Source: Agarophyton chilense
Taxonomy: Eukaryota; Rhodophyta; Florideophyceae; Gracilariales; Gracilariaceae
Assembly: GCA_030374765.1 (NCBI GenBank)
Contig: JARGXX010000010.1
Location: 310,001 to 374,000 of the forward strand
Direction: 5' to 3'
Length of the DNA: 64,000 bases
In this document: in pieces, positions 3,153 through 53,321 of the stretch
Layout: each line of letters starts with the position of its first letter
Numbering within the stretch: position 1 is the first letter of the stretch
The notes under the pieces: model-generated
The model's input: the letters and a program-made list of their open reading frames with translations, nothing else
Database searches by the model: none
What the model was told of the DNA's origin: nothing
Position numbers and translations under genes: made by a program

Positions 3153-3995
3153 ATGAACGGTGGTAAAAATCCCCGCCGGGGTTACTTCTCCGGTTTCCAT
3201 TCGGCTCCCCTTCCGGGGGGGAGTGCCTCCTCAACCGCGCAGAGCCAATCCCGGGGTCCCGTTGAAGCTTCAAGCCACATCACTCCTGCGGAGGGCACCT
3301 GGACCAGTTACGACGAGCTCGTCGGGTTAAACCCGCGTCAACATGCAGCGATTCTCAGGAGAGCTCCGTGGTTCCATCCGAAAGCGGTCTTCGACGAAGA
3401 ACTCGTGGCTGCGTATGCTGATGGCAATGCGCGTCTCCCGGGCGAGCTACCGGCTTTGATCACCACTTCGTGGGACGGGTAACGCCGTGTGGCGGTAGAT
3501 TTCATCTTCTTTAACCCATTGGAGCAGCAAGAGATCTCCGAGGCGGAGGCGTCGGCACTCCGGATGGCTCCGCGAGGAATACCATACGGGCACCCCGTGG
3601 GGTTTGTCAACTCAGATGACTTCTACTACGCCTATGGCGGTCATGATCTCCCGGAGGAGGCGGGCGAATACCGTGGCGACGAGTTCATGGAAGACACGAG
3701 AGACCCCGATGGTGCCGATACTACGGCGCAGCCGGTGCAGGGAGCGACTCACGCAGGGGCGGTCATCGATCCAGTGGCGGCGGCGTTACCGGACGAACTG
3801 GAAGTTATCGAGGTCCCCATACGCCCAGAGGCGGTCGTGATCTCCCAGTTCCTTCGGGGTGTTGGACTGAACGCGCAAGCGGCGAGCGGCGACATCGGTG
3901 CGATGAGAGACGCCCTCGCGGCACGGCTGGCCGGCGGGAGTAACCCCTCTAGCGATTCGGGTGGCGCCCACGGCAATCCAGGTTCTTTTAACTAA
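3153..3995 (+). pseudogene. Antisense accessory reading frame of Element 1 (broken copy)
   Basis: This frame lies on the strand opposite gag-pol, between the pol stop and the 3' LTR. It starts with ATG and reaches GYFSGFHSAPLP within 20 residues, matching GYFSGFRSAPLP in the intact Element 2 copy (12725-14428). The C-termini also match (VVISQFLRGVGL versus AVISQFLRQVGL). Relative to Element 2, residues 119-391 are missing through an in-frame 819-bp deletion with a GGT microhomology at 3495-3498, and a CGA codon has become TAA at 3480-3482. The reading frame before and after both lesions is the same. Function is unknown. Many differences between copies are synonymous, which argues that the protein was once under selection. 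Confidence 0.75.
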
Positions 3996-8653: not shown

Positions 8654-9544
8654 CTATCCATCCTCCATCTCGACACGCCGTTGGCGGGGGAAGATCGCTT
8701 CGACGAAGCGGTCGCAAAAGTCACAACCCAAGATGACTGGGGCGGCTAGTTTCCGACATACGACGAAGTCGAGTTTCACCACGCGAGTGCCAACGCGGAC
8801 TACCAGTTCTATGAAATCCACCGTATCTAACGGTGTCTTGTTGGCGTCAGCGACCTCCGGGACTTGGTCGCGGCGGATCCTAGACTGCAAAGCAGGCGGT
8901 AATACTTCCTCCATGACAAAGTTCAGACAGGCACGGGTGTCTAAGACAGTAAGGTGTCGCACCATAAACTGGGGTGAAAGGCCAAGGTCAGCATAGACCT
9001 TGTAATTTCTTTTGGCCATCACCAGAACTCTATCCAGGAATCGGTTATAGGAAACACGTTTCCACGGACGACGCAAAACGCTAAAGTGTTCCGAATTCAC
9101 GTCATTGACGGCCTCTTTCCTTGAAAAGGATTTTGACCGGGGAGCGAGGCTTGGACGCCTCGGGCGCCGTCGACCTCGACTCTGAGGGCGCCCCTCCTTG
9201 AGAGGAGACTCCCACATTCAGTTTTTCTGGGCCTGCTCCGCCAGAGGCTGCTGCTCAGGACGTTGAGCAGGCAACGCCGGGGCATCAGGTCAAGAAGGTA
9301 CCGCAGAAGCGGTGGGGTGACCTACCACGTTGGTGACACGGGATTCCGGTGCAGGTACGATCTGAGCTCGGGGAAGCGACACGTGACGTGGAACATCCGT
9401 TCGAGCACGGATATACGATGCAATCGGGACAGCTGCTTTGTCCTCCGGGGACAGGCCTCGTAATTGACTACGACTTGTGCCCATTCTCGGAGAGCCGACA
9501 CACATTGTGGAGAAGTATGGCCTGGTGTGTATCAGAGATGACAA
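8654..9544 (-). pseudogene. Element 1 protease region (pol N-terminus)
   Basis: This is the aspartic-protease part of pol, in the -1 frame relative to gag. The pol frame overlaps the end of gag (9532-9544), as expected for a -1 ribosomal frameshift. The active-site stretch reads VLDTRACLNFV, so the usual DTGA/DSGA Gly is Arg. Downstream VILGCDFCDRF is well conserved in Element 2. Two nonsense codons break the frame: TGA at 9290-9292 and TAG at 8654-8656 (TCG in Element 2). No zinc-knuckle CCHC motif could be recognised between capsid and protease. Confidence 0.72.
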
Positions 9545-10482
9545 AACAAATCAGAAGCCGGCGTTAGGTGGCGAGGCTCGGCAAACTTCACCGCGGGGCG
9601 GGTATCTCTCCAACCAGAACGCGAAAAGGGAACATTACCACTCTCGTGTGGGACGCGTGGCTCACGAACGCGACCATTATCCGCATACAGTAGCGTGTCA
9701 TCCTCAATCACGTATTGTGACTCGTCCAAGGTTGAGGGTAGCTCCGTTGTCGGGATGGAATGAACGTCACTATGGGATAGCTGCACGTTATCATAATCCC
9801 TTCGAGAGGCCTGTTCGTCGATCATCGAAGCTGATGTGGTACCCGGTTGTAACATCAACGCTTTTGCGGACCTAACCCTGGATCCAGGAGTGCGTGCGCG
9901 CAGGGCTTCACCTTCTGCACGAGCAAACTGCACTAGTTCCAAATACGTGGCTTTAGGTCTATCTTCTCGACGTTGAGCTACAAGAGTCCTGATCGCCGAG
10001 TCCAAACCATCGACAAACATGGTACAACGCTCTTCAGCGGGGTAAACATTGCCACAGCGGTGGAAGGCCTTGTTAGGGCGCGAAGAATAGTCGGTTTCCG
10101 ACTCGCCTGGACGTTGGCGAATGTCCCGCAGGCCGCGTATCGCCTGCTGAATGGCGGAGTTAGTAGCATACGACCTCAGGAGGTATTGAACTGCTTCGGG
10201 CCAGCAGGTTACCTCTCCTTCAGACGCGCGTGATGTACCTCTGACAGAGTGATACTGGTCTTCTGCAAGCCCACGTAAGAAGTACGGTAAGGCAATGTAG
10301 GCCTGTCCCTCGTTCATTCCAAGGATTTCAGCTTCCGCGACAAAGCGTGCCAAGAAATCCAACAATAATATTGGGTCTTCTCCAGTAAACAACTGGTTGC
10401 GAAGTGAGAGCTGCATTCGCTTAATGCAGTCCTTCGCTCTTCCCGTACCACGGGGTGTACGATCCAAAGAGAAGTCCTCCAA
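9532..10482 (-). pseudogene. Element 1 gag capsid region
   Basis: This is a retrotransposon capsid (Retrotrans_gag-like) domain: residues around LFTGEDPILLLDFLARFVAEA, YIALPYFLRGLAEDQYHSV, then QAIRGLRDIRQRPGESETDY and RCTMFVDGLDSAIRTLVA. It is in the same frame as the preceding gag segment but separated from it by a TGA at 10498-10500. The first listed codon is TTG, so this segment is the continuation of gag rather than a separate gene. The downstream ~100 residues are unstructured. Element 2 lacks this whole region. Confidence 0.8.
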
Positions 10483-11442: not shown

Positions 11443-11533
11443 TGGAGGACAACCCTTGGAGCGGAGACACCACGAAGATGTTCGGCATCTCCCTCTCTTG
11501 AGAGACACGCCTCAAGCGGAGGAGACGCGTCCC
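11443..11533 (-). repeat. Element 1 right LTR, first piece
   Basis: These are the first 91 bp of the right LTR (TGGAGGACAACCC...), homologous to 2028-2118 of the left LTR. The LTR breaks off at GTCCC, where Element 2 is inserted, and resumes at 21953. Confidence 0.9.
11529..11533. repeat. Target-site duplication of Element 2, left copy (GTCCC)
   Basis: GTCCC directly abuts the TG start of Element 2 and is repeated at 21948-21952 after its right LTR. Intact Element 1 LTR has a single GTCCC here (2114-2118). Five bases is the standard duplication for Ty3/gypsy integrase. Confidence 0.93.
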
Positions 11534-12455
11534 TGTAGTGCAACGCCGAGGGCGGCGGAGACACACGATGATGTCCGAGTCTTCCTCCAAGGAGGGTAGC
11601 ACGGCGACGGAGCCTCTCCGGAGTGAACACGACTAAGTCGGGGTGTAAGGCCGAGGTTCACCGGCACGCCAAGCGGGGAGAGTGCGGGATGCTAGAAGGG
11701 AGCAGACCAGGTATGAGCTGTATTCCACGGGAGTGGGCAAGTCTCGAGATCGAGTAATGCACCCACAGGAGTGGCGGTAAACCCGGTAAGCCGGCGCGCG
11801 GCACACGCGCGAGCGGCACGAATAACCAACCACAAAGCAAAAGGGGGAGCTACCACGAGAGTGGGTAAGCGATAAAGGGGGGACCACCCAGTGGGGACGA
11901 TCGGGGGCATGGGCCACGAGAGCCAAAAGACATATGTAGCAAACCCAATACTGGGGCGAGAACACGGCAGTGGTATGAAAGATATACACGCTAACAGCGG
12001 TGAGTCTCCTGTTGACGCAGGGTGGATAAGTCTACCGTTAGTAACGCGGCTTCACCTCCGTAGAGTGTGGAAGACTCGCGAAAGCGGAAAAAGACTTAGA
12101 GCCAAGAACCCTGGTTGAAGAGGTTTACTGAATGTCAGGGCGAGATCGCCCTGGCACTATATAGTGTAGAATACTGTAAAGAGCTCCCTAACCTAGTGTA
12201 ATAAAGCTAAATAAATAGAGAAATATCCAGCCATGCTGTGCCAACCTGTCCTGGGCCACCCGTGGTACACGTGGGTAAGTCACACCCGAATCGGGGCCAC
12301 GGCGCACGGCCGCCGGTGCACTTCGCGTACAACGCGTATACACCTGGCTACGCCAGCCCGCTAGTAGCGGTATTACTCATAGATCTCACAAGTATCGCCC
12401 GAGGCGGAAAAACAACCAAGTCCTGGAAAACGGCCTTCACGAGGGTTGCACTTCA
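11534..12455 (-). repeat. Element 2 left LTR (3' LTR)
   Basis: This 922-bp repeat starts TGTAGTGCAACG and ends GTTGCACTTCA, giving an imperfect terminal inverted repeat. It is nearly identical to 21024-21947. The inner boundary is set by the polypurine tract at 12456. Confidence 0.93.
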
Positions 12456-12471
12456 TATCCCCCTCCTGAGG
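12456..12471 (-). other. Element 2 3' polypurine tract
   Basis: The minus strand reads CCTCAGGAGGGGGATA immediately before the 3' LTR, matching the Element 1 tract in position and core. Confidence 0.85.
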
Positions 12472-12724
12472 CGCGAGTACGACATCCGCGATGGTGGGCG
12501 ACGCGCCGAGACGAATGCATAAGAGTGCAAACAGCTCGCTGGGATCCACTTCATCCGATGCCAACAAACGCAGTGCGGCAAAACTCCAGTCTCCTGGCAC
12601 TAACCGTTCTCAACGTTCCATCTCAACCGAATCCGCATCCTTGGGTGCCAGTCCTCCGATTCCTCGGCATCGTCTTTCGCTTCGCCGGTCTCCTCTTCCG
12701 TTCATCCGGCCTCTTCTCTCACCG

Positions 12725-14428
12725 ATGAGCAACCAAAACAATCAACCGAACCGTCTCCCTGCGGGGTACTTCTCCGGCTTCCGGTCCGCTCCGCTTCCGC
12801 AAAGCGCGTCATCGGCTGCGCCGCAGATTCCTATCGCGAACGCGGCTGCTGCTCCGTACGGAATGTTCCCCCCGAGAGTGTGGCCGCCATACGACATGCT
12901 TGTCGGGCGCCATCCTGGGCCTCATGCGTTCGTTCTCCGGCTTGCGCCGTGGTTCCACCCGATTGCGGTGTTAAACGAAGCGCTCATAGCGATGTACACC
13001 GATGGAAACGGGATGCTTCCGGGCGATATTCCGGCCGTGGCGACAACTTCGTTGGATTGGCGACGCCGCGTAGCGGTCCCGGTCCACGCTGTGGCGCGCC
13101 GGGGTAGTGAAACCTCGGCTTCCGCTCATGCGGCCTTCGTCCTTCTTGGCCATCAACGGCTTCGCCGGGCTCCTTTTGAATATCCCATCGCCGATGGTCT
13201 CGGCACCGACATTCGGCTTTACCGCACTCAAGGTGAGATTGGTTACGTCGACCGCCTGGCGGGTTTGGAAACACTCTCGTGGAGGGGCATCCCGATAGCA
13301 CGGCAAGAGGCCATGTGCTGGACGCGACCGATTATCTGGGCAGAATTCCGCTACATGCGTCGACTTGCGCGGGCCAACTTCCTCGCCCTGATCCGCTTCG
13401 AGCGTCGAGCACGATCCCGATTCGGGTATTTGGTCCCGTATCAGAACGTGGAGATCGAAAGCCGTCGCGTGGCCGACCGACGGGGTCGCTATGTCCTCAT
13501 TCCACCGTGGTGGTCGAACCTCGAGGCCTGCTGGGGCTGTTACATCGAGCTGCCACCAGTCATCACGTATTACGGTTCGTACCTCATCGAGGATCCCGAG
13601 TCCGGACTGTGGTCCGTGGTGATTACAGAATGGGCAGTCCGCGCGGCGGTGTTCATCCTCTGGGAGATGTATGACCAGTACAGACTGTGGTTCCTCCCGT
13701 TCCGGTTGAGGTCCGCGATTCGCAGCCTGGACCTGAGCATCCCACTTGGTGGAGTAACCAACGCCGAAGAAGTGGCGGGTCTTCTCGATTATATCGACCA
13801 GTTGGACTGGACCACCGTTCCGATTGAACAAAGCGGGCGCACCGTGGGTAGCCGGGGTCAGGACCTGTCACCAGGAAGGCGTACTCCCTTGGGAGGTGAT
13901 TTCGTATACTTTGACCCTTGGGAAGGGCACGAGATCTCCGCGGAGGAAGCGAACGAACTCCGGTTTGCACCACGCCATATCCCCGAGGGGCATCCGATCG
14001 GTTTCGTGGACGCGGATGGATATTACCACGTCTACGATGGCGACGATCCAATGGTGGACAACGAACCCGACGACGGGGAAGCGTACGCCGAGGCGGAGGT
14101 CGAGGGATCCGAAGCGGAAGGTCCCTATAACGCGGGGACGCCAGCCACGCCCTACGTGGATTTGGATAACCCCGCGGGGGCTGGGTCGGAGTACGCGGTA
14201 GCTGGACCACCTCCGGTTCCACCGGTAAATCTCCCAAGTGGTGGGGCGTCCGCCCCAGGCGATGCGAGCTCCGCTCCGGCGGGTCAAGCGGCCGTGATAT
14301 CCCAGTTCCTGCGACAGGTGGGGCTGGGGACCAACGCAGCGAGTGGCGATGTTGCCGCAATGCGCGAGGCCCTGATCACCCGCCTCCAGGGAGGTAACCA
14401 ACCCGGGGGCGGTGAGCCGAACCCGTGA
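12725..14428 (+). CDS. Antisense accessory protein of Element 2, function unknown
   Basis: A 567-residue frame on the strand opposite gag-pol, convergent with pol (pol stop at 14608, 179 bp away). The start is the ATG at 12725 (MSNQNNQPNRLPAGYFSGF) because the Element 1 copy also starts a few residues before the shared GYFSGF(H/R)SAPLP; the frame is open further upstream to 12491, but that part is not conserved. Residues 1-118 and 392-567 align with the Element 1 copy; the middle is present only here. The middle is rich in Arg, Trp and Tyr (ARANFLALIRFERRARSRFGY, WFLPFRLRSAIRSLDL). Residues ~420-520 are acidic and proline-rich, and the end is a short conserved helix (AVISQFLRQVGL, AASGDVAAMREAL). 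No signal peptide, obvious membrane segment or known domain is seen. In plant Tat-lineage retrotransposons, antisense frames occur in the same place, but I see no similarity. Confidence 0.72.
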   Translation: MSNQNNQPNRLPAGYFSGFRSAPLPQSASSAAPQIPIANAAAAPYGMFPPRVWPPYDMLVGRHPGPHAFVLRLAPWFHPIAVLNEALIAMYTDGNGMLPGDIPAVATTSLDWRRRVAVPVHAVARRGSETSASAHAAFVLLGHQRLRRAPFEYPIADGLGTDIRLYRTQGEIGYVDRLAGLETLSWRGIPIARQEAMCWTRPIIWAEFRYMRRLARANFLALIRFERRARSRFGYLVPYQNVEIESRRVADRRGRYVLIPPWWSNLEACWGCYIELPPVITYYGSYLIEDPESGLWSVVITEWAVRAAVFILWEMYDQYRLWFLPFRLRSAIRSLDLSIPLGGVTNAEEVAGLLDYIDQLDWTTVPIEQSGRTVGSRGQDLSPGRRTPLGGDFVYFDPWEGHEISAEEANELRFAPRHIPEGHPIGFVDADGYYHVYDGDDPMVDNEPDDGEAYAEAEVEGSEAEGPYNAGTPATPYVDLDNPAGAGSEYAVAGPPPVPPVNLPSGGASAPGDASSAPAGQAAVISQFLRQVGLGTNAASGDVAAMREALITRLQGGNQPGGGEPNP

Positions 14429-14607
14429 CGGGGCACGCGATCCCGATGGGAAGTTTTCGCTTGTGACTTAGAGTAGTATCCCGAGTGCTCGGTATTCCAT
14501 CGATAGCTTCGAATAAAAACCAAGTGACTTGTGTAACCCAAAAGCTTCCTTCACTAGCCTGTTCTCAAGCAAACCTACTTCTCTTTTCTCTTCCACCGAG
14601 GTGGGTG

Positions 14608-17346
14608 TTATCCCACCTGGGCTTTAACAACCGATGCCGGGATTCCCGTCCGCGTTCTGCGGTGATATGACATCACCTTCGAACGTGGGAGATGTTCCAT
14701 CGGCTCATCTGAATCCCATTCGGGCCCTAAACCGTACCAACGGACGAGGTATTGAATATAACCATCCGGATGGTATGAGTGCTCCACTATGTGGTCGACC
14801 ACGAACTCATTCTCGTAGACTTCCCGCCCTTGCGGTCTACGCGTCACCGGACCAAACCGGGGTACGTCCGCAGGTGCGTGTGGGCTACTGTGCCCTTCCC
14901 CCGAGGGGTCGATGGGTTGGTGTTGCATTTCCATGCCCTGGGTAGGGGAACGAACCGGGTTCCGGGTTGCCTTGGTCGCTTGGCGGGTTGCTTCCGCCAA
15001 GGCGTCATGACGAAGAGCGTCAGTTCGACGGCTTCGGCCGGAGGCCTTCCCGTGGGGCAATTCTCCCAGTTTTTGGGTCGTAATGCTTTCCGAGAGTTCT
15101 CGTGCAGAGCCCACCCTTCGGGGGAACGCGGACTCATCCCAAGGCTGGGTTTCGCGGTCGCGTTCCGCGAGTCGTCGGGGTGAAATCCGTCGCGACGGTG
15201 CTGGACTTGACGCGGGAGGCGGTTTCATCACGGGGCGTTGTGCCTTTCCGGGTGAGCCGCCTTGGGCGTTGATTGGCGTATCTCCCGAGCCGGGTGTCGT
15301 CTGGTCACGTGACACGTCCGGCTGATGGCTGGGAGTACTCCGCGCCGAGCTGCGTTCCTCCTCCTCACGTGAGGGCGTGTGCAACGGCGCTGCCGGTATG
15401 TCTGCTCGCTTGGGCGACAAAGTACCGCGACGGGCGTGCAACTCCGGGTCAACCGTGCCTTCCTCACCAACGGGCGGCGAAGTGCGCGGCGAGGAACCCC
15501 TGCGGGGAGCGAGTTCGTCCTCAACTATCCCTTTCGAGGGTTCAACTTCACTCGGCGACGAGGTGCTTCCGTCCTTGACGGGCACATTCTCCGGGGTGAC
15601 CAGTGCACCTTCGACAACGCTTTCGGGGCCAAACGAGACACTCGGAGTGCGTCTGCCACTTCGCGCGGGTTCTGAACCAGCATCAAGCGTGCTGGGTGTG
15701 AATCTCCCGTCTGCTACGGTGTGCTTGCCCGGCTTAGCCAGTGTGTCCTGCCGTACAGTACGAGGGACCACTTCCGATCGATTCGGCCTAGAGGGGCCTG
15801 CGAGGGCGTGCTCTAAGTTTTCCAGCGTAGCTGGTGTCGACGAACCGTGACCCACGGGCTGCGGGTCAACGCTCGACGGCATAGCCGGTCCAGTATCGCG
15901 AGGGCGAACAGCATCCTGCGACGATTTCGGTTTCGCTTCGGCGAGAGGGTTTCCACTACGTGGTGCGTCCTGTCGAGTAGAGTCCCCGTGGGGAGTGCGA
16001 TCAGACGCAGATGCGGTGGCGCTTCCCATAGAGGGTTCAGAAACGGCTATAGCGCGCAAACGCGGAGATGGCACGTCGGTAGACGGGACGTCCGGATCAC
16101 CTTTGTTCTTGCTGGTGTGTCCAGGAGTCCGTGCACCACGGTTGTCATGACGCGACGAAGCGGTTTCCGTCTCTCGACGAGAGTTATGAGCTTCCTCCCC
16201 CTCCTGAGACGGAGCGGCATGGGGAGTGGTTGAAACGCCCAACGGGCGGGGGTAGACACCGCGCCGTGGCGTGAGAGAACAGAGGCCGTTCTGGCCTTGG
16301 TCCGATAAGATCGGCAAGTCAGAGAGTCCCCGGGTAGGGTGTGGTAACGCAGAAGGTCTGGAAACCACGGCAGTGGGCTGAGCCACCATTGTGTGCCGAG
16401 CACCATCATCCTCAGAGAGGGATTGTTGACCCATTTCGGTTACTTCCAACGTCGGTGGAGGGGCGAGTACAACGCGGTCGCGGGAGATCCGCTCATGAGC
16501 GTCGACAATTTCCACCACGATGGTGTCGTCTTTCACCGAAATGACCTTGTAAGGACCGTCCGCGACGGAAGAAAGCTTTTCCTTCTTTTCCTTTTCAGGG
16601 TTCCAGTACTCCTTACGGACGAAGACGAAGTCACCGGCTTTGATTGGCGGGGCCTTACCGCGTACGCGAGAGTCGAAATCACGCTTGTAATCGGCTTGGG
16701 CACGAGCCATCGAGCTTCGGGCGACCGGGATCAGCTTCGTAAGCCACTCTTTCCACCTGTGGCGATAATCCTTCACGGAAGGGAACGCATCCAGCGTGGG
16801 GTGGGGTTCTAACGCCAGAGCGGGCGGAGGGCGGGACAAGACCAGTTCGAATGGAGTCAAGCCCGTAGTACGGTGTACCTGCGTATTGTACGCGAACGTC
16901 AAGGCGTCGGTATATAAATCCCATGTCTTTGGGTGGTCGGCCCCGTAAGAACGGAGAGACGCTAATAGCGTTCGCTTAAACCGCTCCACTTGCCCATTAC
17001 ACTGGGGGTGATAGGTCGGTGTGAACAGGTTCTTGATGTCAAGAATCCTGCACACATCCTCGAAGAATCGCGATGCGAACTGTTTTCCGTTATCGGATAG
17101 AAGATTTACCGGCGGGCCGTAGACGAATACCCAATGGGTTACAAAAGCTTGTGCAACCGTGAAAGCGGATATCTTCCGTAGAGGTACGGTCCGAACCAGT
17201 TTTGAGAAACGATCCGTGATAACGAGTAAAAACTTATGTCCACGTCGTGTGGTGAGGAGCTTACCGAGGATTTCAATGGCGACAAACTCGAGAGGAGCCC
17301 GTGCCGGGAATAGTTTCAACTTCGTTGAGTACTTGCGAAGTTTCAC
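14608..17346 (-). pseudogene. Element 2 pol 3' part: integrase, long linker, chromodomain
   Basis: This 912-codon frame continues the RT segment in the same phase after a TAA at 17362-17364. Residues ~1-180 are the integrase core; the second Asp (LLSDNGKQFAS) and the Glu (QCNGQVERFKR) are present, but the first Asp is Glu (FVAIEILG, versus FVTIDILG in Element 1), which should cripple catalysis. Residues ~235-298 are the GPY/F-like module (VADGPYKVI). About 540 Pro/Ser/Arg/Thr-rich residues follow, then a chromodomain at ~843-900 (VVDHIVEHSYHPDGY, LVRWYGLGPEW, SDEPMEHLPRSKV). A linker this long between integrase and chromodomain is unusual; it is only ~300 residues in Element 1. Confidence 0.9.
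16194..16208 (-). other. Internal polypurine tract in Element 2 pol linker
   Basis: The minus strand reads CTCAGGAGGGGGAGG, matching the 3' tract of this element including its C-to-A difference from Element 1 (CTCAGG versus CTAAGG). It sits at the position equivalent to 5096 in Element 1. Confidence 0.45.
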
Positions 17347-17361
17347 CCGATTCTTAGCACA

Positions 17362-20049
17362 TTAGGTACAAAACCGCACCGTTGCGTAGCAATCCACCGC
17401 CATGGCGGGCCAGTAGAAATTCCTTCGCAAAGTGAGGTAGAGCTTCCGTCCACCGGCGTGTCCACCAAGTTTCGCATATTGCGATAGATGCAAAACTCTA
17501 GACTGTAGAGTATGCGGCACCACGACTTGTGGGGATGACTGAACCGTCCTGACGAGGTATCCAAGATCGTTCACCTCGAAAGGGAGTTGTGCACCGCCAT
17601 TAAGGCAGGCGCGAATCTTCGTACAGAAAGGGTCACCCTGCTGTTCTCTGACCATCTCCTCCGGGGGTATCGGCACAAAATTACCCGGCGGGGGTTTCTC
17701 TGAATCGTCCGAGACGAGCAATGCGTCAATATCATCATCTGATTCCGGGCTTTCGTTCCATTTATCGTGTAACCAATCCGGGTCCCCCGGTGTTCCATCG
17801 TCTACGACGAAGCAAGGTATATCCTCGTCATCGACGGCTAGAGCTTCCCCATTCGTGGGTAAACGCGAGAGCGCGTCCGCTTGCGCGTTCTGAGTGCCCT
17901 TCTTGTAGATCACTTCAAAGTCATATTCCGCGAGGCAGAGTCTCCAATGCATTAAGCGGCCTGACGGCTCCAAGATGGTCATGAGCCATCGTAGGGACGA
18001 GTGATCCGTGTAAACGATAAAGTGCACACCCATGAGGTAGGGACGGAGTGTAGAGAGGGCCCACACAACTGCGAGGCACTCCTTCTCCGACACGGAGTAG
18101 TTCCGCTCGTGGACATTGAGCGAGCGTGACCAGTACCCAATGGGTTTGCGTTCTCCTTCGGGAGTAGTTTGAAAGAGCGCACAGCCTACCTGGTAGTCGC
18201 TAGAGTCCGTGTCCACGGAAAACGGTAGTCCGGGTTTCGGTAACGATAGAATCGGTGCTGATGTGACAGCCTCCCTAAGGGAGTTAAAAGCATCCGTCTG
18301 GGCGGACGTAAAGGGGTCCAGTTTAGGTGGTTGACCTTTCCGCAGAAGCGCGTTCAAGGGGGCCGCGATGTCAGCGAAGTTAGGGATAAACCGTCGGTAG
18401 ACGTTGACCAATCCTAGAAAGGAGCGCAGTTCCGTCTGGGTAGCGGGTTCTTTCGCCTTGCGAAGGGACCTCACTCGAGCTTCCTCGATCATTACACGTC
18501 CCGGACGGATAATGTGCCCGAGATACTTCACAGTATCGGTAAAGAACTCACATTTCCTCAGTTTGAGGGTTATTCCAGCGTCACGTAGCGTGGTCATTAT
18601 GTCCCTGACATGGGTGAGATGGTCATCCAGATTGTTTGAGAATACAATGATATCGTCCAAGTAGACGAGGCAAGTACGCCACTTAAAGCGGGCCAACAAA
18701 ATGTCGATAGCACGCTGAAAGGTAGCGGGAGCATTGGTTAGACCAAAAGGCATCCGTTTGAAACGGTAGAGTCCCGAGTGACAGACAAACGCAGTCTTAT
18801 CTTGGTCCTCCTCCCTAACGGGAACCTCCCAATATCCCCAATTGGCGTCCAAAGCCGTGAACACGGTAGCAGTGCCGAGAGAGTCGATGTACTCATCTAT
18901 TCGTGGGATCGGATACACGTCCTTGACGGTAACATCATTCAAGCGACGGTAGTCAATGCAAAAGCGCCAGGACCCATCGGGTTTCGGAGCCAGTACCACT
19001 GGGGATGCCCACGGCGACTGAGCCGGTTCGATCACTCCAGCTCGGAGCATTTTGTCCACTTGGAACTGTTCCTCTTCTCGAGCCTTGGGACCTGCCCTGT
19101 AAGGGTGTTGAGCCACCGGTTGGGTGTTCGGCAATAAATCTATCCGGTGTTCCGTTGTATTTATCTCACCAAGAGAGCCATCCCACATTGTGGTAAACTC
19201 CCATAACATCTCACGCAGACTATCACGGTGTGACTCCTGTGCATGACCGAGGTCGAGTTCCTCGAGTTCTTTCACGGGGTCTACCCGGTCGTAACTCGTC
19301 GGAACGGGCTTCTTTTCTGTTTCGGCAGGTTGCGATTCCGAATCATTCGGTGATTGGACGGCAGCTTCCTCCCCCTTCTTAGAGTGAACGAGACCGAGGA
19401 CTTCGGCAGCGGTCAGCCTAGTGGGGACCATCGCGGTGGGGTGAGGCATTACCGATCCAATAACTTGGTTTTTCACCAGTGACTGGGGGGTGGAGCCCAG
19501 ATTGGCAACGAGCACGGTGAACGGCTTGTCTGGGACAATCTGCGCGACTCCATTCGCCACGGCGAGTTGATATCCATCGTACAGAGATGAGAGGGGCTGA
19601 AGGACTCGTAAACCGTGTTGACAGGAAGTGACACGCACCCATACTTGGGACTCTGGCGGGATTCGGACAGACGCAGCCACGCGGAGCTTGGTAGACTCCC
19701 GAGAAGCGGGTGGAGGTTCCTGCGCGGCAGGGAGCGGTACGTGCTTCTTGGAGGCACGCCGCAGCGGACGACGGACAATCGGGACCGACGAGCCGTCTTC
19801 CATCTCAACACGCTTTAAGCGGGGCCTTATGGCGTCAACGAATCTGTCACAGAAGTCACATCCCAAGATAATGGGGGCAGCCAATTTCCGGCATACAATA
19901 AAGTCGAGTTTCACCACGAAGGAGCCCAAGCGAACGACGAGAGCGACGGTTCCAACCGTTGACAACGGGTTGTTATTCGCGTCCGCGACGTCGGGCGCCA
20001 CGACAAGGCGGATCTGAGACCGCAAGGGCGGGGGCAGCAGCGACTCCAC
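17362..20049 (-). pseudogene. Element 2 pol: protease remnant, RT, RNase H, integrase zinc site
   Basis: An 895-codon frame. It starts after the protease active site, which the gag-pol deletion removed, so only the C-terminal protease half remains (VILGCDFCDRF). The RT is complete: SPWASPVVLAPKPDGSWRF, FTALDANWGYWEVPV, HSGLYRFKRMPFGLTNAP, TCLVYLDDIIVFS. RNase H keeps its acidic residues (VDTDSSDYQVG, SEKECLAVVWAL, VYTDHSSLRWL). The frame ends in the integrase zinc site: RFCT is followed by TAA where Element 1 has RFCTDC, so a single codon change separates it from the integrase segment. The first codon listed is GTG, not a true start. Confidence 0.92.
19368..19382 (-). other. Internal polypurine tract between protease and RT, Element 2
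   Basis: The minus strand reads CTAAGAAGGGGGAGG, at the same place in pol as the Element 1 tract at 8234. Confidence 0.4.
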
Positions 20050-20863
20050 GATGAAATACGTACCATGGTTTCCTTCTCTTCTCGCGGGCGCGGATCACAC
20101 CTTGGGGGGCATACGACCGTTTAGAACGGGATGAACGCCTGCGATGGCCATTGTCAGAAGACGAATCTGACGAGTCCGACCCATTTGAATGGTGAGAGCC
20201 ACGCGACGACGGTGAGGAGTTCGACGAGTCCGAGTCATCGCTGTCACGCTTTCCACGCCGACGGCGGGTATCGTCCCTTTTCCTCTCGTGTTTCGCTTGG
20301 TGCGACACAGCAACCGGCTTCTCCGGGACGTCTTCCATCAAGATGGTTTGCTCTAACGTCTGGAGACGGGCGCTAACACGATTGAATCGGGTCTGGACAC
20401 CTTCCACGTAAGCGGCGGGACCACCAAAACATTCCAACAGGGTGTTGACGTCCGCCTGCAACAAGCGGAGGTCGTAAACCACTTCCTTCATAGAAGAGCC
20501 ATCACACCTGGAACGCAGGGCTTCGAACTCTTCCACGAAGGCATTGTGCGCTTCCCGCATTACGCGGATCTGCTGCCTCACACTTGAGTTGGTGTCGATG
20601 TGGAACTCGTTTTTCTGGGCCTTTTCGTCGGCAGGAGCCGGGTCATTCACGGCAGGGGCCGGTCCAGCACCAGAATTGGGTCCATTCTTCGACACCTTAG
20701 GAGGTAGCTTGTTGTTCTTGAAGGAGTTCGACCCCTTACTCTTGCCTTTCGGAGGGGCTTGAGGTAACGGCGGGGGAACCCTTCCAGGGTCCGCAGGCAC
20801 CACGTCATTGACGGAACGGCTCCGCGTGATCGCGGGTTCCGCTTCCGACGGTAGTCGTGACAT
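19973..20863 (-). pseudogene. Element 2 gag, truncated (N-terminal coiled-coil part only)
   Basis: The start is ATG at 20863 (MSRLPSEAEPAITRSRS), equivalent to the Element 1 gag start. A helical stretch (RQQIRVMREAHNAFVEEF, VNTLLECFGGPAAYVEGVQ, RLQTLEQTI) aligns with Element 1, followed by a Ser/Asp/Arg-rich tail. After VIRARE the sequence jumps to the middle of the protease region in a different frame; about 1.1-1.2 kb present in Element 1 (capsid and protease active site) is missing. The last ~30 residues are out-of-frame pol sequence. An upstream in-frame ATG at 20926 is less likely because homology begins at 20863. Confidence 0.78.
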
Positions 20864-21001
20864 GGTTGTAGCGTTGACCACTAAGAATAGGACAACAAAA
20901 GCTTCCACCAAGTGGGTCCAAACCAAGAAATTGGAAAGCAGATCTCGACGAGAGAAGACAGCACAGCAATGTGAAAAACAACCAAACCAGGTCCCCCTAG
21001 C

Positions 21002-21023
21002 CTTCTAAGTCGGGAGACCAGTT
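21002..21023 (-). other. Element 2 primer-binding site
   Basis: The sequence cttctaagtcgggagacca plus gtt directly inside the 5' LTR is identical to Element 1, so both elements would prime from the same tRNA despite different LTRs. Confidence 0.75.
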
Positions 21024-21947
21024 TGTAGTGCAACGCCAAGGGCGGCGGAAACACACGAAGATGTCCGAGTCTTCCCCCAAGGAGGGTAGCACGGCGACAG
21101 AGCCTCTCTGGAGTGAACACGACTAAGTCGGGGTGTAAGGCCGAGGTTCACCGGCACGCCAAGCGGGGAGAGTGCGGGATGCTAGAAGGGAGCAGACCAG
21201 GTATGAGCTGTATTCCACGGGAGTGGGAAAGTCTCGAGATCGAGTAATGCACCCACAGGAGTGGCGGTAAACCCGGTAAGCCGGCGCGCGGCACACGCGC
21301 GAGCGGCACGAATAACCAACCACAAAGCAAAAGGGGGAGCTACCACGAGAGTGGGTAAGCGATAAAGGGGGGACCACCCAGTGGGGGCGATCGGGGGCAT
21401 GGGCCACGAGAGCCAAAAGACATATGTAGCAAACCCAATACTGGGGCGAGAACACGGCAGTGGTATGAAAGATATACACGCTAACAGCGGTGAGTCTCCT
21501 GTTGACGCAGGGTGGATAAGTCTACCGTTAGTAACGCGGCTTCACCTCCGTAGAGTGTGGAAGACTCGCGAAAGCGGAAAAAGACTTAGAGCCAAGAACC
21601 CTGGTTGGGGAGGTTTACTGAGTGTCAGGGCGAGATCGCCCTGGCACTATATAGTGTAGAATACTGTAAAGAGCTCCCTAACCTAGTGTAATAAAGCTAA
21701 ATAAATAGAGAAATATCCAGCCATGCTGTGCCAACCTGTCCTGGGCCCCCCGTGGTACACGTGGGTAAGTCACACCCGAATCGGGGCCACGGCGCACGGC
21801 CGCCGGTGCACTTCGCTTACAACGCGTATACACCTGGCTACGCCAGCCCGCTAGTAGCGGTATTACTCATAGATCTCACAAGTATCGCCCGAGGCGGAAA
21901 AACAACCAAATCCTGTAAAACGGCCCTCACGAGGGTTGCACTTTTAA
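21024..21947 (-). repeat. Element 2 right LTR (5' LTR)
   Basis: A 924-bp near-copy of 11534-12455. Its outer end reads TTGCACTTTTAA rather than TTGCACTTCA, so the terminal CA is lost and two bases are gained right at the insertion junction. Confidence 0.93.
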
Positions 21948-37921: not shown

Positions 37922-39496
37922 TCAACTAACGCTCATTTCAGAACCGTCACCGGGGAAGGATGGCCTTGCACCCTTACCGGCAAGAAAGTCTTTTCCAGAG
38001 GCCTTCTTCTCCTCTTCGATTTCTTCAATGAGCTCCTTCGGTAATTTTCCAACATTGCTGAATTCTCTCTTCGTAGACACAATGATGGGTTTCGGAGTAA
38101 TCACTCCACTGTCATCTGACTCTGGGTCGATGATATCTTGTAAAACTGATGGATTTACAGGAATTTCAGAAACTACGACTGTCGGAGCCTGAACCGTGGG
38201 TCGAGTGATGATTGGACTGGCTTCCTTTATTACCTCTTCCTCTATAGAGAGTTCCATTCCCTCAATGTTATAGGTCATCGGGGGTGGAGTAAGAGCCGGC
38301 TTCTCTCGCTCCGCAGAAAGTTGTGCGATGCGACGCTCAATATCAACAATAAGTTGCTTCACTCGTTCCAGTTCTTTTTCCCTGTCGGAAACAGCTGCCG
38401 CTGGTTGTCGTGTTGGTCCATTAAGTTGGTCGACGCCAGAAGCCCCCCAGGCTGCGACTGGAGCTCCCACATATTGCCCTGTGAATACTGTAACTGCTCC
38501 ATTGCCATAATTCTTGCCGTAGAGGGGTGTGACGTCCATATCATTCAGCATTGATTTGAAAGGATTAATAACAGCCCGAGAGCTGTCCAACTTAGCATAA
38601 GCTCGGTCAAGCTCAATTTTAAGTTGATATTCTCTTGCTTTCGCAATATCAAGCTCATTTATATAGCGCTCGAGGGAAACGGCTGGAAGGTCATACTTTT
38701 TAGATGGATGCTCGCCGTTCGGAATGGGCGGCAGCCCATCTGCAACTGAAAAGGCGGGGGTTGGAACGTTTGCCGCAAGCGAAGTGACGAGCGCCTGGGG
38801 CTTGAACTTGTCGGAGCCGGCAAAACCACCTTGAAGGGAACACATGCGATTAAACTGGTTGATCGGGGCGTAGGTACCACGAAAACGCGTGTACGGGAAG
38901 ATATCCTCGCCAAAGACCTCGTCATATTCTGGGTCATCAAAGTAGGAATCAATCTCTGCATCATATCCGCCTGCAGCAAAAATCTTGAAGTGCTTTGAGT
39001 ATTCCACCTGGTTGAGTGGGGCCCGCCCCAAAAAGTGCTTAAAGTTGAGCTCAATGAAGCGGAATTGAGTGACTTTTTCAAAGAAGCGCTCACGATAGGT
39101 ATCAGACTTTGCGACAGCGCGTGCAAATTCCTTGGCAGTTATACGCCCACATCGAAGCTTGGATTCGGCGGTGTAAAACTGTGCACGCTCCTCTTCCATC
39201 AAATACGCATTTCCAAAGAGTTGACGGAGAGCGGTGGAAATGACAGAATCCTTATCCTCATCAGTAAGAGAGACAGGACGGTCCTTGAACAGGTAGCGTG
39301 TGATAGTGTAAGGTTCCAGCGAAACGCGATCGAGGCCGCCAGAGTAGGTTTGGAATTCGATTGCCATGGAAGGGCGCAGTGCAGACGGCGAGGCAGCATG
39401 GCGCGCACGAGCGGCGGGCGAAAGCGCAGCGCGCGACGGGAGAAAGGAAGAAGACAAGGCGCAGGCCGTGACAGGAAGGGCAGACACAAACGCCAT
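37922..39496 (-). CDS. Nuclear-encoded plastid phycobilisome rod-core-type linker
   Basis: Holds phycobiliprotein hexamers together in phycobilisomes on the thylakoid surface. The start is ATG at 39496 (MAFVSALPVTACALSSSFLP), giving 524 residues. Residues 1-~44 are rich in Ala/Ser/Arg with Phe near position 3, typical of red-algal plastid targeting. Residues ~50-215 are a PBS linker (REP) domain: YTITRYLFKDRP, ALRQLFGNAYLMEEER, ITAKEFARAVAKSDTYRERF, FIELNFKHFLGRAPLNQVEY, YDAEIDSYFDDPEY. The C-terminal ~300 residues are not part of the domain; they contain two predicted coiled coils (ERYINELDIAKAREYQL; DREKELERVKQLIVDIERR) and an acidic end. A rod-core linker is likeliest; a red-algal-specific linker with an extended tail is the alternative. 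Confidence 0.9.
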   Translation of the reverse strand: MAFVSALPVTACALSSSFLPSRAALSPAARARHAASPSALRPSMAIEFQTYSGGLDRVSLEPYTITRYLFKDRPVSLTDEDKDSVISTALRQLFGNAYLMEEERAQFYTAESKLRCGRITAKEFARAVAKSDTYRERFFEKVTQFRFIELNFKHFLGRAPLNQVEYSKHFKIFAAGGYDAEIDSYFDDPEYDEVFGEDIFPYTRFRGTYAPINQFNRMCSLQGGFAGSDKFKPQALVTSLAANVPTPAFSVADGLPPIPNGEHPSKKYDLPAVSLERYINELDIAKAREYQLKIELDRAYAKLDSSRAVINPFKSMLNDMDVTPLYGKNYGNGAVTVFTGQYVGAPVAAWGASGVDQLNGPTRQPAAAVSDREKELERVKQLIVDIERRIAQLSAEREKPALTPPPMTYNIEGMELSIEEEVIKEASPIITRPTVQAPTVVVSEIPVNPSVLQDIIDPESDDSGVITPKPIIVSTKREFSNVGKLPKELIEEIEEEKKASGKDFLAGKGARPSFPGDGSEMSVS

Positions 39497-39885
39497 ATTG
39501 CGCGTTAGGGAGATTGGAAACAGGCAGAACGTGGCTCTCTGACGAGGATGAGGTGAACGCGGTGCGGCGAGCAGCGTATACAAAAGTGGTGTCCCGGGGA
39601 CGCGAAAGCGAGGAAGCACGATGAGCTGTTCTTACCGGAGACGTGGCTCGGGCGTAGGCCAGACCATATGGAAACGCAACGCGCGAGCTCACACCAATGA
39701 CAGCGAGCTGCGGAGCAGATTGGGGCGTGTGTCCTCTGACACGTGTGGCGCGTGGCAGTGTCTTTTGTAAGCCCTGTTTACAGCGCTTGTACGTAGATGT
39801 GTAAGACGTTCCTCGGAGAGAAATGTCCCACATGCACTCGTGAAGAAGTGCATCGCATAAGTAGAGGAGAAAGACCTTCTTTCCG
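39497..39885. other. Region between phycobilisome linker and palmitoyltransferase genes
   Basis: Upstream region of the linker gene and 3' region of the palmitoyltransferase gene, both on the minus strand. Open frames here are extensions or shadows of the neighbours. No further gene is seen. Confidence 0.5.
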
Positions 39886-51590: not shown

Positions 51591-53321
51591 ATGGGTTCTT
51601 CTCGCAAGATATCACCGACGCCGCCGAAAAACGCTCAACCGGTACCGGACATTCAAACTCCAGGTTGGTGCAGATACAACCCTGACGATGACTCTGGCGA
51701 TGAGGTGAGTTTAGAACTTTCTCCATTTGACACTTCTGAGTCCAACTACGTACGTCTTCACCAGGAACGTGCTGACTACGAGCGCAGCAGATGGCAGAAA
51801 TTCGAAATTCCTGTCTCTACACCGCGTCGTAAAACTTCAAAGTCTCCCAAACCAGTTTTCCCGACTCCTCAGGAATGTGCATATTATCTTCATGCTGCAT
51901 TGGCAAACATCGCTGGTTCGAGAAAGCCAAAGGCTCCTAGAAGAAAGCAAATTTCTTCAGAATACAAAGCTATCATTGGCGCGCTTAGCGGCGTAGAAGA
52001 GATGCTCAACTCTCAGATTCAACATTTAAGTCAGCATCTCGCCAACGATAATCCGAACCCCGCGAAGGGAAAAAGTTATCCTCTACGTCCTTCTCTCGAA
52101 GGAGAACACTCAGCCCCGTATTCCCCTACCGTTGAATCGGGACTCAGCTTTCTGTTTCATATCACCGCAACTTTTGCCGCGCTTGCCCGTCCAATGCTTA
52201 CGGAGCTGACAAATGCTGCCAAACAATTGGATGCTGAGTTTAAACCCAATGCCCCGAACCTTACTTTCGCAGCGCTCAACAAACACTTTAATCTGGAAGA
52301 AGCAGACAAATCAAGCAGTGGGCGGGTTTCCAAGCGCCTTGGCAACCGGTGTACTTCTGCAAATGGAACCTGCTCAAGTTCAGGACCGACTGTTTCCGAA
52401 CTGGCTGCGGAGATACGACGTTTGATTCCGGAAAAGTACACTTTCTTGAAAGCAAACTTCACGTTGAATCCGAACTATCGCCTGGAAGGTACGGCTCGAT
52501 CATTGGAAGAGATGGCCGCAACTTGTGAACATCCAGAAAGATTCCGACCCCGTACTCCACCTCCATCGCCACCAATTGAAATTGCCAAGTGCCCACGAGC
52601 TTCAAGAACAAGTGTAAAACCACCTACTGCGAAAGGCTCACGAATGTCTAAGAGAACAAGATCGGTCCCCATTTCCGCCAATGGACAACTGAATCGTCAT
52701 CCGAGTTCTGCACAGCGTTCGGATCGATGCCCTTCAAAGCCCCCCCACACAAAACGGCGGAAGCAAGAGCCGGTTTTAGTCACTCCACCACATACACCGC
52801 TGACCTCTAGACCTCCATCACAGTCTTATCGCACCTCTCCTATTGCATCAGATCTGCCTGTGTCGAGAAGACGAGCATCAAATTCTGCTTCGCTATCAGG
52901 ATATATGCAGGGAGGGCCCAGTTCAGGCATGGCGGGCCCATCCTACGGGACACCATCCCCGCCAAACAATCGTCGGAGCTCTGCCATGAAACATGCCTCT
53001 TTCGCTCCCGTTGTTTTTCGATTACCATCTGATGCAAGACAGAAGCTACGGGAGAATGTGAAACGGCGTCTACCGCACGTAAGGACAGAAGAAGACGAAA
53101 ATGAAATGCGGGCATATGCAATAGAAGAAGATGGTGAGGAAGACTCAGTGGACTCTCGCTCATCTCGTTCTAAAAGCGTTCCTAATTCCCCGTTGACAGT
53201 TGATGTGCAGCACGATACTGAGGATAGCAAGGTCAGGCAGCGGATAAAGTTCCACCAGGTTGTTGACGTAGACGAGCCTGAAGTCGTGGAACAGCCAATT
53301 GTGGTGGATCTTGACGCTTAA
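51591..53321 (+). CDS. Unknown SP/TP-rich basic protein
   Basis: A 576-residue protein not recognised. ATG at 51591 (MGSSRKISPTPPKNAQ). The N-terminal part contains WCRYNPDDDSGDE, and residues ~95-180 and ~185-225 look helical (TPQECAYYLHAALANIAG; SGLSFLFHITATFAALARP). The middle and C-terminal parts are disordered, with many Ser-Pro/Thr-Pro sites (RPRTPPPSPPIEI, VTPPHTPLTSRPP, YGTPSPPNNRR), basic clusters (PPHTKRRKQEP, a nuclear localisation candidate) and an acidic end (VVDVDEPEVVEQPIVVDLDA). The many minimal CDK/MAPK sites suggest a cell-cycle or signalling-regulated nuclear protein, but this is inference. Codon-like composition and length make a real gene likely. Confidence 0.75.
   Translation: MGSSRKISPTPPKNAQPVPDIQTPGWCRYNPDDDSGDEVSLELSPFDTSESNYVRLHQERADYERSRWQKFEIPVSTPRRKTSKSPKPVFPTPQECAYYLHAALANIAGSRKPKAPRRKQISSEYKAIIGALSGVEEMLNSQIQHLSQHLANDNPNPAKGKSYPLRPSLEGEHSAPYSPTVESGLSFLFHITATFAALARPMLTELTNAAKQLDAEFKPNAPNLTFAALNKHFNLEEADKSSSGRVSKRLGNRCTSANGTCSSSGPTVSELAAEIRRLIPEKYTFLKANFTLNPNYRLEGTARSLEEMAATCEHPERFRPRTPPPSPPIEIAKCPRASRTSVKPPTAKGSRMSKRTRSVPISANGQLNRHPSSAQRSDRCPSKPPHTKRRKQEPVLVTPPHTPLTSRPPSQSYRTSPIASDLPVSRRRASNSASLSGYMQGGPSSGMAGPSYGTPSPPNNRRSSAMKHASFAPVVFRLPSDARQKLRENVKRRLPHVRTEEDENEMRAYAIEEDGEEDSVDSRSSRSKSVPNSPLTVDVQHDTEDSKVRQRIKFHQVVDVDEPEVVEQPIVVDLDA

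Follow-up and report, generated by a model that had tools for sequence, protein, structure and literature searches.

A long open frame on the strand opposite gag-pol of an LTR retrotransposon raises the question of whether it is a gene of the element and, if it is, what its product may do. Such a frame occurs in Element 2 (E2) of the window, that is, the whole 64-kb stretch of Agarophyton chilense DNA analysed here. Its structure, its copies and relatives in other genomes, the selection acting on it and its possible roles are considered below.

The antisense frame and the element that carries it

The frame occupies positions 12725–14428 of the plus strand and its translation gives 567 amino acids followed by a stop codon. 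It separates the 3' LTR from the integrase-chromodomain end of pol, which is on the minus strand, and the two genes meet tail-to-tail. Coordinates and translation agree with the preliminary description of this locus, which had reported an intact 567-codon frame opposite gag-pol, between pol and the 3' LTR. Stop codons number 14, 13, 3, 19 and 10 in the five remaining frames of the region. The open stretch continues upstream to an ATG at 12491, which would add 78 codons (12491–12724, plus strand; translation putative) and give a product of 645 amino acids. All 30 E2 copies examined retain the ATG at 12725, as do 19 of the 20 loci of the related Element 1 (E1) readable there; the ATG at 12491 is retained in 29 of the 30 E2 copies, and either may be the start used. 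The extension is free of stops in 28 of 30 E2 copies, and its variants show no clear coding signal when sorted by codon position (20/24/20 for singletons and 6/4/8 for shared variants).

The LTRs of E2 were delimited by alignment. The one at the 3' end relative to gag-pol, located upstream of the antisense leader, spans 11534–12455, and that at the 5' end spans 21024–21943; the aligned pair (11534–12453 versus 21024–21943) shows 16 mismatches in 920 positions (98.3% identity). The sequence GTCCC directly before the left LTR, found again 4 bases past the right end of the alignment, fits a putative target-site duplication of E2. A polypurine tract, purine-rich on the minus strand, adjoins the LTR at 12456–12470, and a matching tract is present in E1 at 2914–2928. 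A pattern scan of one copy per family identified in the E2 LTR a palindromic TATA-like site, CACTATATAGTG (12155–12166), readable on both strands and a candidate promoter element; a similar site was found in the stretch of a third, more distant family (E3), and none in the E1 LTR. About 84 nt past the antisense stop codon there is an AATAAA (14512–14517, plus strand), a possible polyadenylation signal. By eye, it follows the antisense stop in 27 of 30 E2 copies; it is also present in all nine E3 loci scanned, about 50–55 nt past the frame in the four compared (L062, L063, L066 and L069), and was not seen in the E1 stretches inspected.

On the minus strand the domains follow the order RVT_1, RT_RNaseH, Integrase_H2C2 and rve, which is that of Ty3/gypsy elements. 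Reverse transcriptase, RNase H and the start of integrase are encoded at 17362–20049 (RVT_1, E 1e-37; RT_RNaseH, E 6e-36; Integrase_H2C2, E 4.5e-7), and the integrase core and the chromodomain at 14608–17346 (rve, E 8.5e-9; Chromo, E 3.9e-5). The Chromo scores of E2 (23.9 bits) and E1 (24.1 bits) are both just under the cut-off of 25.1 bits, and those of two E3 loci (26.9 and 26.4 bits) are over it. A frame in the position of gag (19973–20926, minus strand), recognised by its location and by 41.6% identity over 173 residues to the gag region of E1, gave no match to Retrotrans_gag nor any gag domain match of its own. Only about 1 kb (19973–21023) separates pol from the 5' LTR in E2, against some 2.4 kb in E1, where there is a capsid match (9532–10482); this copy of E2 may be without part of gag. 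At the integrase zinc-binding domain (17346–17362) its pol is split into two open frames, of 895 and 912 codons, that share one reading frame, and the reverse-transcriptase frames of some other copies are open for up to 1926 codons.

E2 appears, from the arrangement of the sequences, to have been inserted into the right LTR of the older E1. The first 91 bp of this right LTR are 83.5% identical to the left one (2028–2118 versus 11443–11533) and the remaining 800 bp are 94.1% identical, an unevenness that would be accounted for by gene conversion or by recombination in the origin of the element. E1 also carries a relic of a homologous antisense gene (3153–3995, plus strand), and this was found just as first described: it starts at 3153 and preserves both the GYFSGFHSAPLP block and VVISQFLR. 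An in-frame stop interrupts the relic at 3480–3482, and about 273 codons are missing, corresponding to residues 119–391 of the E2 protein. Elsewhere in the window there is a gene with a phycobilisome linker domain (37922–39619), as is proper to a phycobilisome-bearing alga; together with the close A. chilense protein matches described below, it indicates a red alga near Gracilariales as the host. The gene-rich part of the window also contains a 576-codon open frame (51591–53321) for which Pfam gave no match at E of 0.001 or lower. Scans of the 64-kb window with Rfam and for tRNAs gave no match.

Copies, families and relatives of the antisense gene

The genome (79.8 Mb in 135 contigs) was searched with the antisense protein. 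Own-genome searches scored between 63 and 150 candidates each, and all copy counts are consequently lower bounds. At least 77 loci, including that of the window, match the E2 antisense protein (78 match rows, the final one being a second piece of one locus); the others are 92–96% identical, and 30 of those listed have no in-frame stop. For the tail of E1 there are at least 150 matches, counting itself, and other E1 copies of the antisense gene are nearly full length, with two of the 22 analysed (L033 and L058) free of stops. The use of further homologues as queries brought out E3, in which many copies are open frames of 611 codons. At locus L063, taken with L071, gag, reverse transcriptase and chromodomain are on the strand opposite the antisense gene, and the chromodomain is likewise opposite at L062. 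The E3 gap between the antisense gene and pol (L063:3060–3200) contains short repeats of the form cttctcgcttctcgagttctt. At least three element families of this genome, E2, E1 and the distant E3, carry the antisense gene. Identity ranks agree between the two proteins: the reverse transcriptases are 82–87% identical between E1 and E2 and 66% between E2 and E3, and the antisense proteins 57% and 38%, respectively.

Linkage to the element was examined with 107 of 151 reverse-transcriptase matches, of which the 74 at 92% identity or more were used and the 33 at 86–89% were left out. Among the matches listed, 64 of these 74 close E2 copies have the antisense gene within 8 kb on their 3' side and in opposite orientation; in 48 of the 64 the distance is 4,057–4,087 bp. 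Two partial matches of 96–97% identity stand outside the tally, each having, some 4.1 kb away, an antisense match in opposite orientation. The ten copies without an antisense match among those listed may reflect real absence, rearrangement or a gene outside the matches listed. Three E2-family reverse-transcriptase copies are located on one strand within 18 kb (G000:C22:1516227–1534248), with no antisense gene among the matches listed; this cluster may have arisen when a deleted form was duplicated locally. The preliminary description had assigned the frame to a lineage, as opposed to a one-off, and had named absence from most related elements as an argument against the gene. The assignment is sustained by the three or more families, by the presence of the gene in 64 of the 74 close E2 relatives and by homologues in two red algae.

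A first protein search with the E2 antisense protein retrieved seven proteins at 32–42% identity, and a second one with alignment A1 returned only six proteins already found. The search with the E3 protein gave 12 others: seven from A. chilense (56–91% identical to E3), one from Gracilariopsis chorda (52%) and four more. Overall, homologues are 29–44% identical to the E2 protein. The tree contains two clades with a support of 1.00: E1, E2, P0003 and P0004 make up the first, and P0017, P0018 of G. chorda, two A. chilense proteins and E3 the second, which P0019 joins weakly (0.28). No relatives were confirmed in viral contigs or in bacterial and archaeal genomes. The lack of any family name for this protein, as first reported, persisted through searches of Pfam, NCBIfam, PHROGs and PDB sequences, none of which yielded a convincing match. 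In the PDB comparisons, the profile of A1 gave nothing at E up to 1, and those of A4 and A5 only weak matches of unrelated appearance (best E 0.16 and 0.21).

The protein has a conserved core at about residues 65–430, with 24 invariant columns among 13 proteins and 11 among 18, followed by an acidic stretch (residues 431–530, pI 4.1) and by a C-terminal tail (codons 521–567; 14285–14425, plus strand) that is conserved in relatives and helical-looking by eye. The tail alignment comprised 11 sequences, namely ten of the 18 A4 proteins plus P0003; P0006, which has no tail, P0008, P0012, P0019, P0020, P0021 and L058 were left out, P0019, P0020, P0021 and L058 being given as relatives of P0018 in this selection. 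Ish1 matched three of the 11 tails (best E 0.0017; 19.1 bits against a cut-off of 26.6) and not that of the window. DUF6127 matched two (best E 0.007) and is the only match of the window's own tail (E 0.048); DUF6127, E3_binding and SAM_6 are further weak matches that compete with Ish1. The profile of the tail retrieved nothing relevant from PDB sequences. A HeH/Ish1-like tail is, on these similarities, a lead only. The maximum hydropathy over 19 residues ranges from 0.96 to 1.64 in 12 members and is 1.57 in the E2 protein (P0001), with two members reaching the usual mark of 1.6 (1.60 and 1.64); by this measure the protein has no clear membrane segment. Simple NLS-like motifs are present in four of 12 proteins checked, and P0001 has none.

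Selection on the antisense protein

Comparison of the E2 antisense gene with the E1 copy L033 gave an omega of 0.18, close to that of integrase (0.17). Between the E2 and E1 of the window, omega was 0.27 in the gag region (161 codons), 0.15 in PR-RT, 0.09 in RT-RH, 0.17 in integrase and 0.37 at the chromodomain end. The decayed E1 relic of the window, the copy used for these pol comparisons, preserves parts of the antisense gene without the core, and against it the antisense omega was 0.32 for the N-terminal part and 0.24 for the C-terminal part (162 codons). As dS between families is saturated (1.3–2.2), all these between-family values are only approximate. The pattern by codon position is direct: antisense gene divergence is 0.32, 0.27 and 0.61 at first, second and third positions, so that third positions diverge about twice as fast as the other two. 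In raw counts, E1 and E2 copies differ by a mean of 383 non-synonymous against 275 synonymous changes, and the ratio per site is still well below 1.

Variation among copies was studied in 30 E2 and 30 E1 loci, which were the best protein matches among those listed, a choice that creates a bias against changed copies; eight of the 30 E1 loci, with broken or short matches, were left out of the codon counts. Mean omega over all pairs was 0.62 within E2 (30 copies), 0.51 within E1 (22 copies) and 0.22 between them. Singleton variants should mostly postdate insertion. Within the two families these had omega values of 0.95 and 0.96 and 29 of them created stops, while shared variants had values of 0.48–0.60 and three created stops. 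The contrast in stop counts gave p 0.12. Non-synonymous and synonymous counts differed between singletons and all shared variants by Fisher's test (pooled p 1.2e-4; E1 alone 6e-4; E2 alone 0.06), the pooled test being chosen after comparison with the class shared by at least four copies proved non-significant (E2 p 0.42; E1 p 0.10). This class is small, with 10 non-synonymous and 7 synonymous variants in E2 and 15 and 13 in E1. We read these patterns as those that would be expected if dead copies drift while the replicating lineage keeps the protein.

Selection on the protein had been proposed in the preliminary description, which took a dN/dS near 1 across many copies as the sign of its absence. 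The present data indicate purifying selection, with an omega of 0.18 between families and constraint on shared variants; values near 1 (0.95 and 0.96) are those of singletons. It is thus almost certain that the frame codes for a protein under selection and belongs to the element.

Known arrangements and possible roles of the product

The arrangement itself is already known from plant Retand-type elements and from the fungal Boty. Plant aORF-3R genes (Grande gene23, RIRE2 and Retand ORF4) are antisense and located between pol and the 3' LTR, and their function is unassigned (PMC7264820, partial text). The E2 gene resembles them in place, in orientation and in its presence in most copies (the 64 of 74 among matches listed). 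Retand elements are non-chromoviruses, with TRP28 encoded in 97% of their clusters (PMC11963269, partial text). Unlike them, E1, E2 and E3 carry a chromodomain. TRP28 (PF04195) gave no match among 18 family members at E up to 10 with HMMER filters on, and membership of this kind was rejected. Consequently, of the parallel with plant Tat-lineage elements drawn in the preliminary description, the arrangement stands and membership does not, because the elements described here carry a chromodomain and Retand is non-chromovirus.

In a non-plant host, brtn is an additional antisense gene of the Boty-like elements of Botrytis cinerea (PMC7264820, PMC8365987, partial texts). The E2 gene is likewise an extra antisense gene of an LTR retrotransposon; the host of brtn is, in contrast, a fungus, and the likeness considered is one of arrangement. 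HBZ of HTLV-1, also an antisense gene, owes its expression to the 3' LTR and plays an important part in the life cycle (PMC10186651, partial text). E2 shares with it an antisense gene in an LTR element, preceded by a 3' LTR and by a leader of some 270 nt, regulation being only presumed here. HBZ is a bZIP protein, a feature taken as defining; unlike it, the antisense protein had no bZIP family among its Pfam matches. Env-like ORFs occupy the same slot between pol and the 3' LTR. They are sense ORFs, though, and on account of the antisense orientation and of the hydropathy, which gave no clear membrane segment, an Env-like protein was judged unlikely.

With these systems in mind, we give about even chances to the view that this is an antisense accessory gene of a chromodomain-bearing Ty3/gypsy lineage, apparently red-algal, whose product is likely to be a trans-acting regulator. 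Antisense transcription would start in or next to the 3' LTR and would end in the short gap between the convergent genes. Because the 3' LTR is just upstream of the leader, the simplest assumption is that of an antisense promoter linked to the LTR, and expression from it is probable. Retroviral LTRs are often bidirectional (PMC10186651, partial text), and Grande gene23 has antisense transcription from a promoter upstream of the gene and a nuclear protein (PMC7264820, partial text). The product, with its conserved core, acidic linker and small conserved C-terminal tail, would act in trans on the transcription, chromatin or RNA fate of the element. A trans regulator is favoured by analogy with the plant antisense accessory genes and with HBZ, and on the same analogy a nuclear regulator, rather than for instance a particle component, might be proposed at a little under even chances.

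The protein could instead be a component of the particle or of the pre-integration complex, with a part in assembly, nuclear entry or integration and not in the regulation of expression. A constraint near that of integrase and the presence of the gene in most close copies fit such a core replication role as well as they fit regulation. However, coding opposite gag-pol would presumably require a separate and coordinated expression, and profile comparison of the antisense protein with the E2 gag-position frame, the sole part of gag or pol so compared, revealed no similarity. We consider this role possible but less likely than regulation.

A main function residing in the antisense transcript, through sense-antisense RNA regulation or as a silencing trigger and with the protein secondary, is improbable. 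The sequence of such a transcript would complement the 3' part of gag-pol RNA, and antisense RNAs with possible regulatory effects have been discussed (PMC7264820, PMC10186651, partial texts). Nevertheless, constraint is evident at protein level, in the low between-family omega, in the shared variants and in the faster third codon positions, and, since RNA function alone would not yield such a codon pattern, an RNA-only reading was rejected.

Little probability is also given to a host gene captured in antisense, by gene transduction, that still has mainly its host-type activity. Capture has been discussed as a route for accessory genes (PMC7264820, partial text), and the antisense protein matched no gag, reverse-transcriptase or integrase domain in Pfam, as a captured gene might. 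Against this, no clear host relative outside elements was seen among the 63–150 candidates of each own-genome search, which is a weak test, and the depth of the protein family implies that any capture was old.

Finally, an artefact of composition, or a non-coding strand read as a frame, has a negligible probability and was rejected: the GC content of the region is about 58–61% and high GC lengthens open frames, a cause already contemplated in the preliminary description, but none of 400 dinucleotide-matched simulations reached 567 open codons, the longest run over all frames having a mean of 193 and a maximum of 468, and selection and homologues also speak against it.

Returning to the antisense accessory gene as the preferred reading, chromoviruses are known to occur in red algae (PMC3605345, partial text). 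No report of a red-algal antisense retrotransposon gene was found among the titles and abstract openings of the open-licence literature, and the words antisense, LTR, Gypsy and retrotransposon are absent from the main text of the Gracilaria genome paper PMC12502185. What look new are the unmatched protein family, the host group (red algae) and the chromodomain-bearing element. The extension of the arrangement to chromodomain-bearing elements of red algae suggests convergent evolution. More tentatively, and with chances well short of even, the antisense gene may define an ancient clade of chromodomain retrotransposons of red algae, perhaps also of other eukaryotes, with a protein family without relatives and possibly its own fold.

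If this is true, an antisense accessory gene would have been invented here once more, independently of plant Tat/Retand elements, of fungal Boty and of retroviral HBZ, and the 3' antisense slot would be a recurrent site for accessory regulators. The many copies, the three or more diverged families in a compact genome, the selection and the relatives provide an alignment deep enough for work on structure and function, and both the expression from the 3' LTR and the role of such genes become directly testable.
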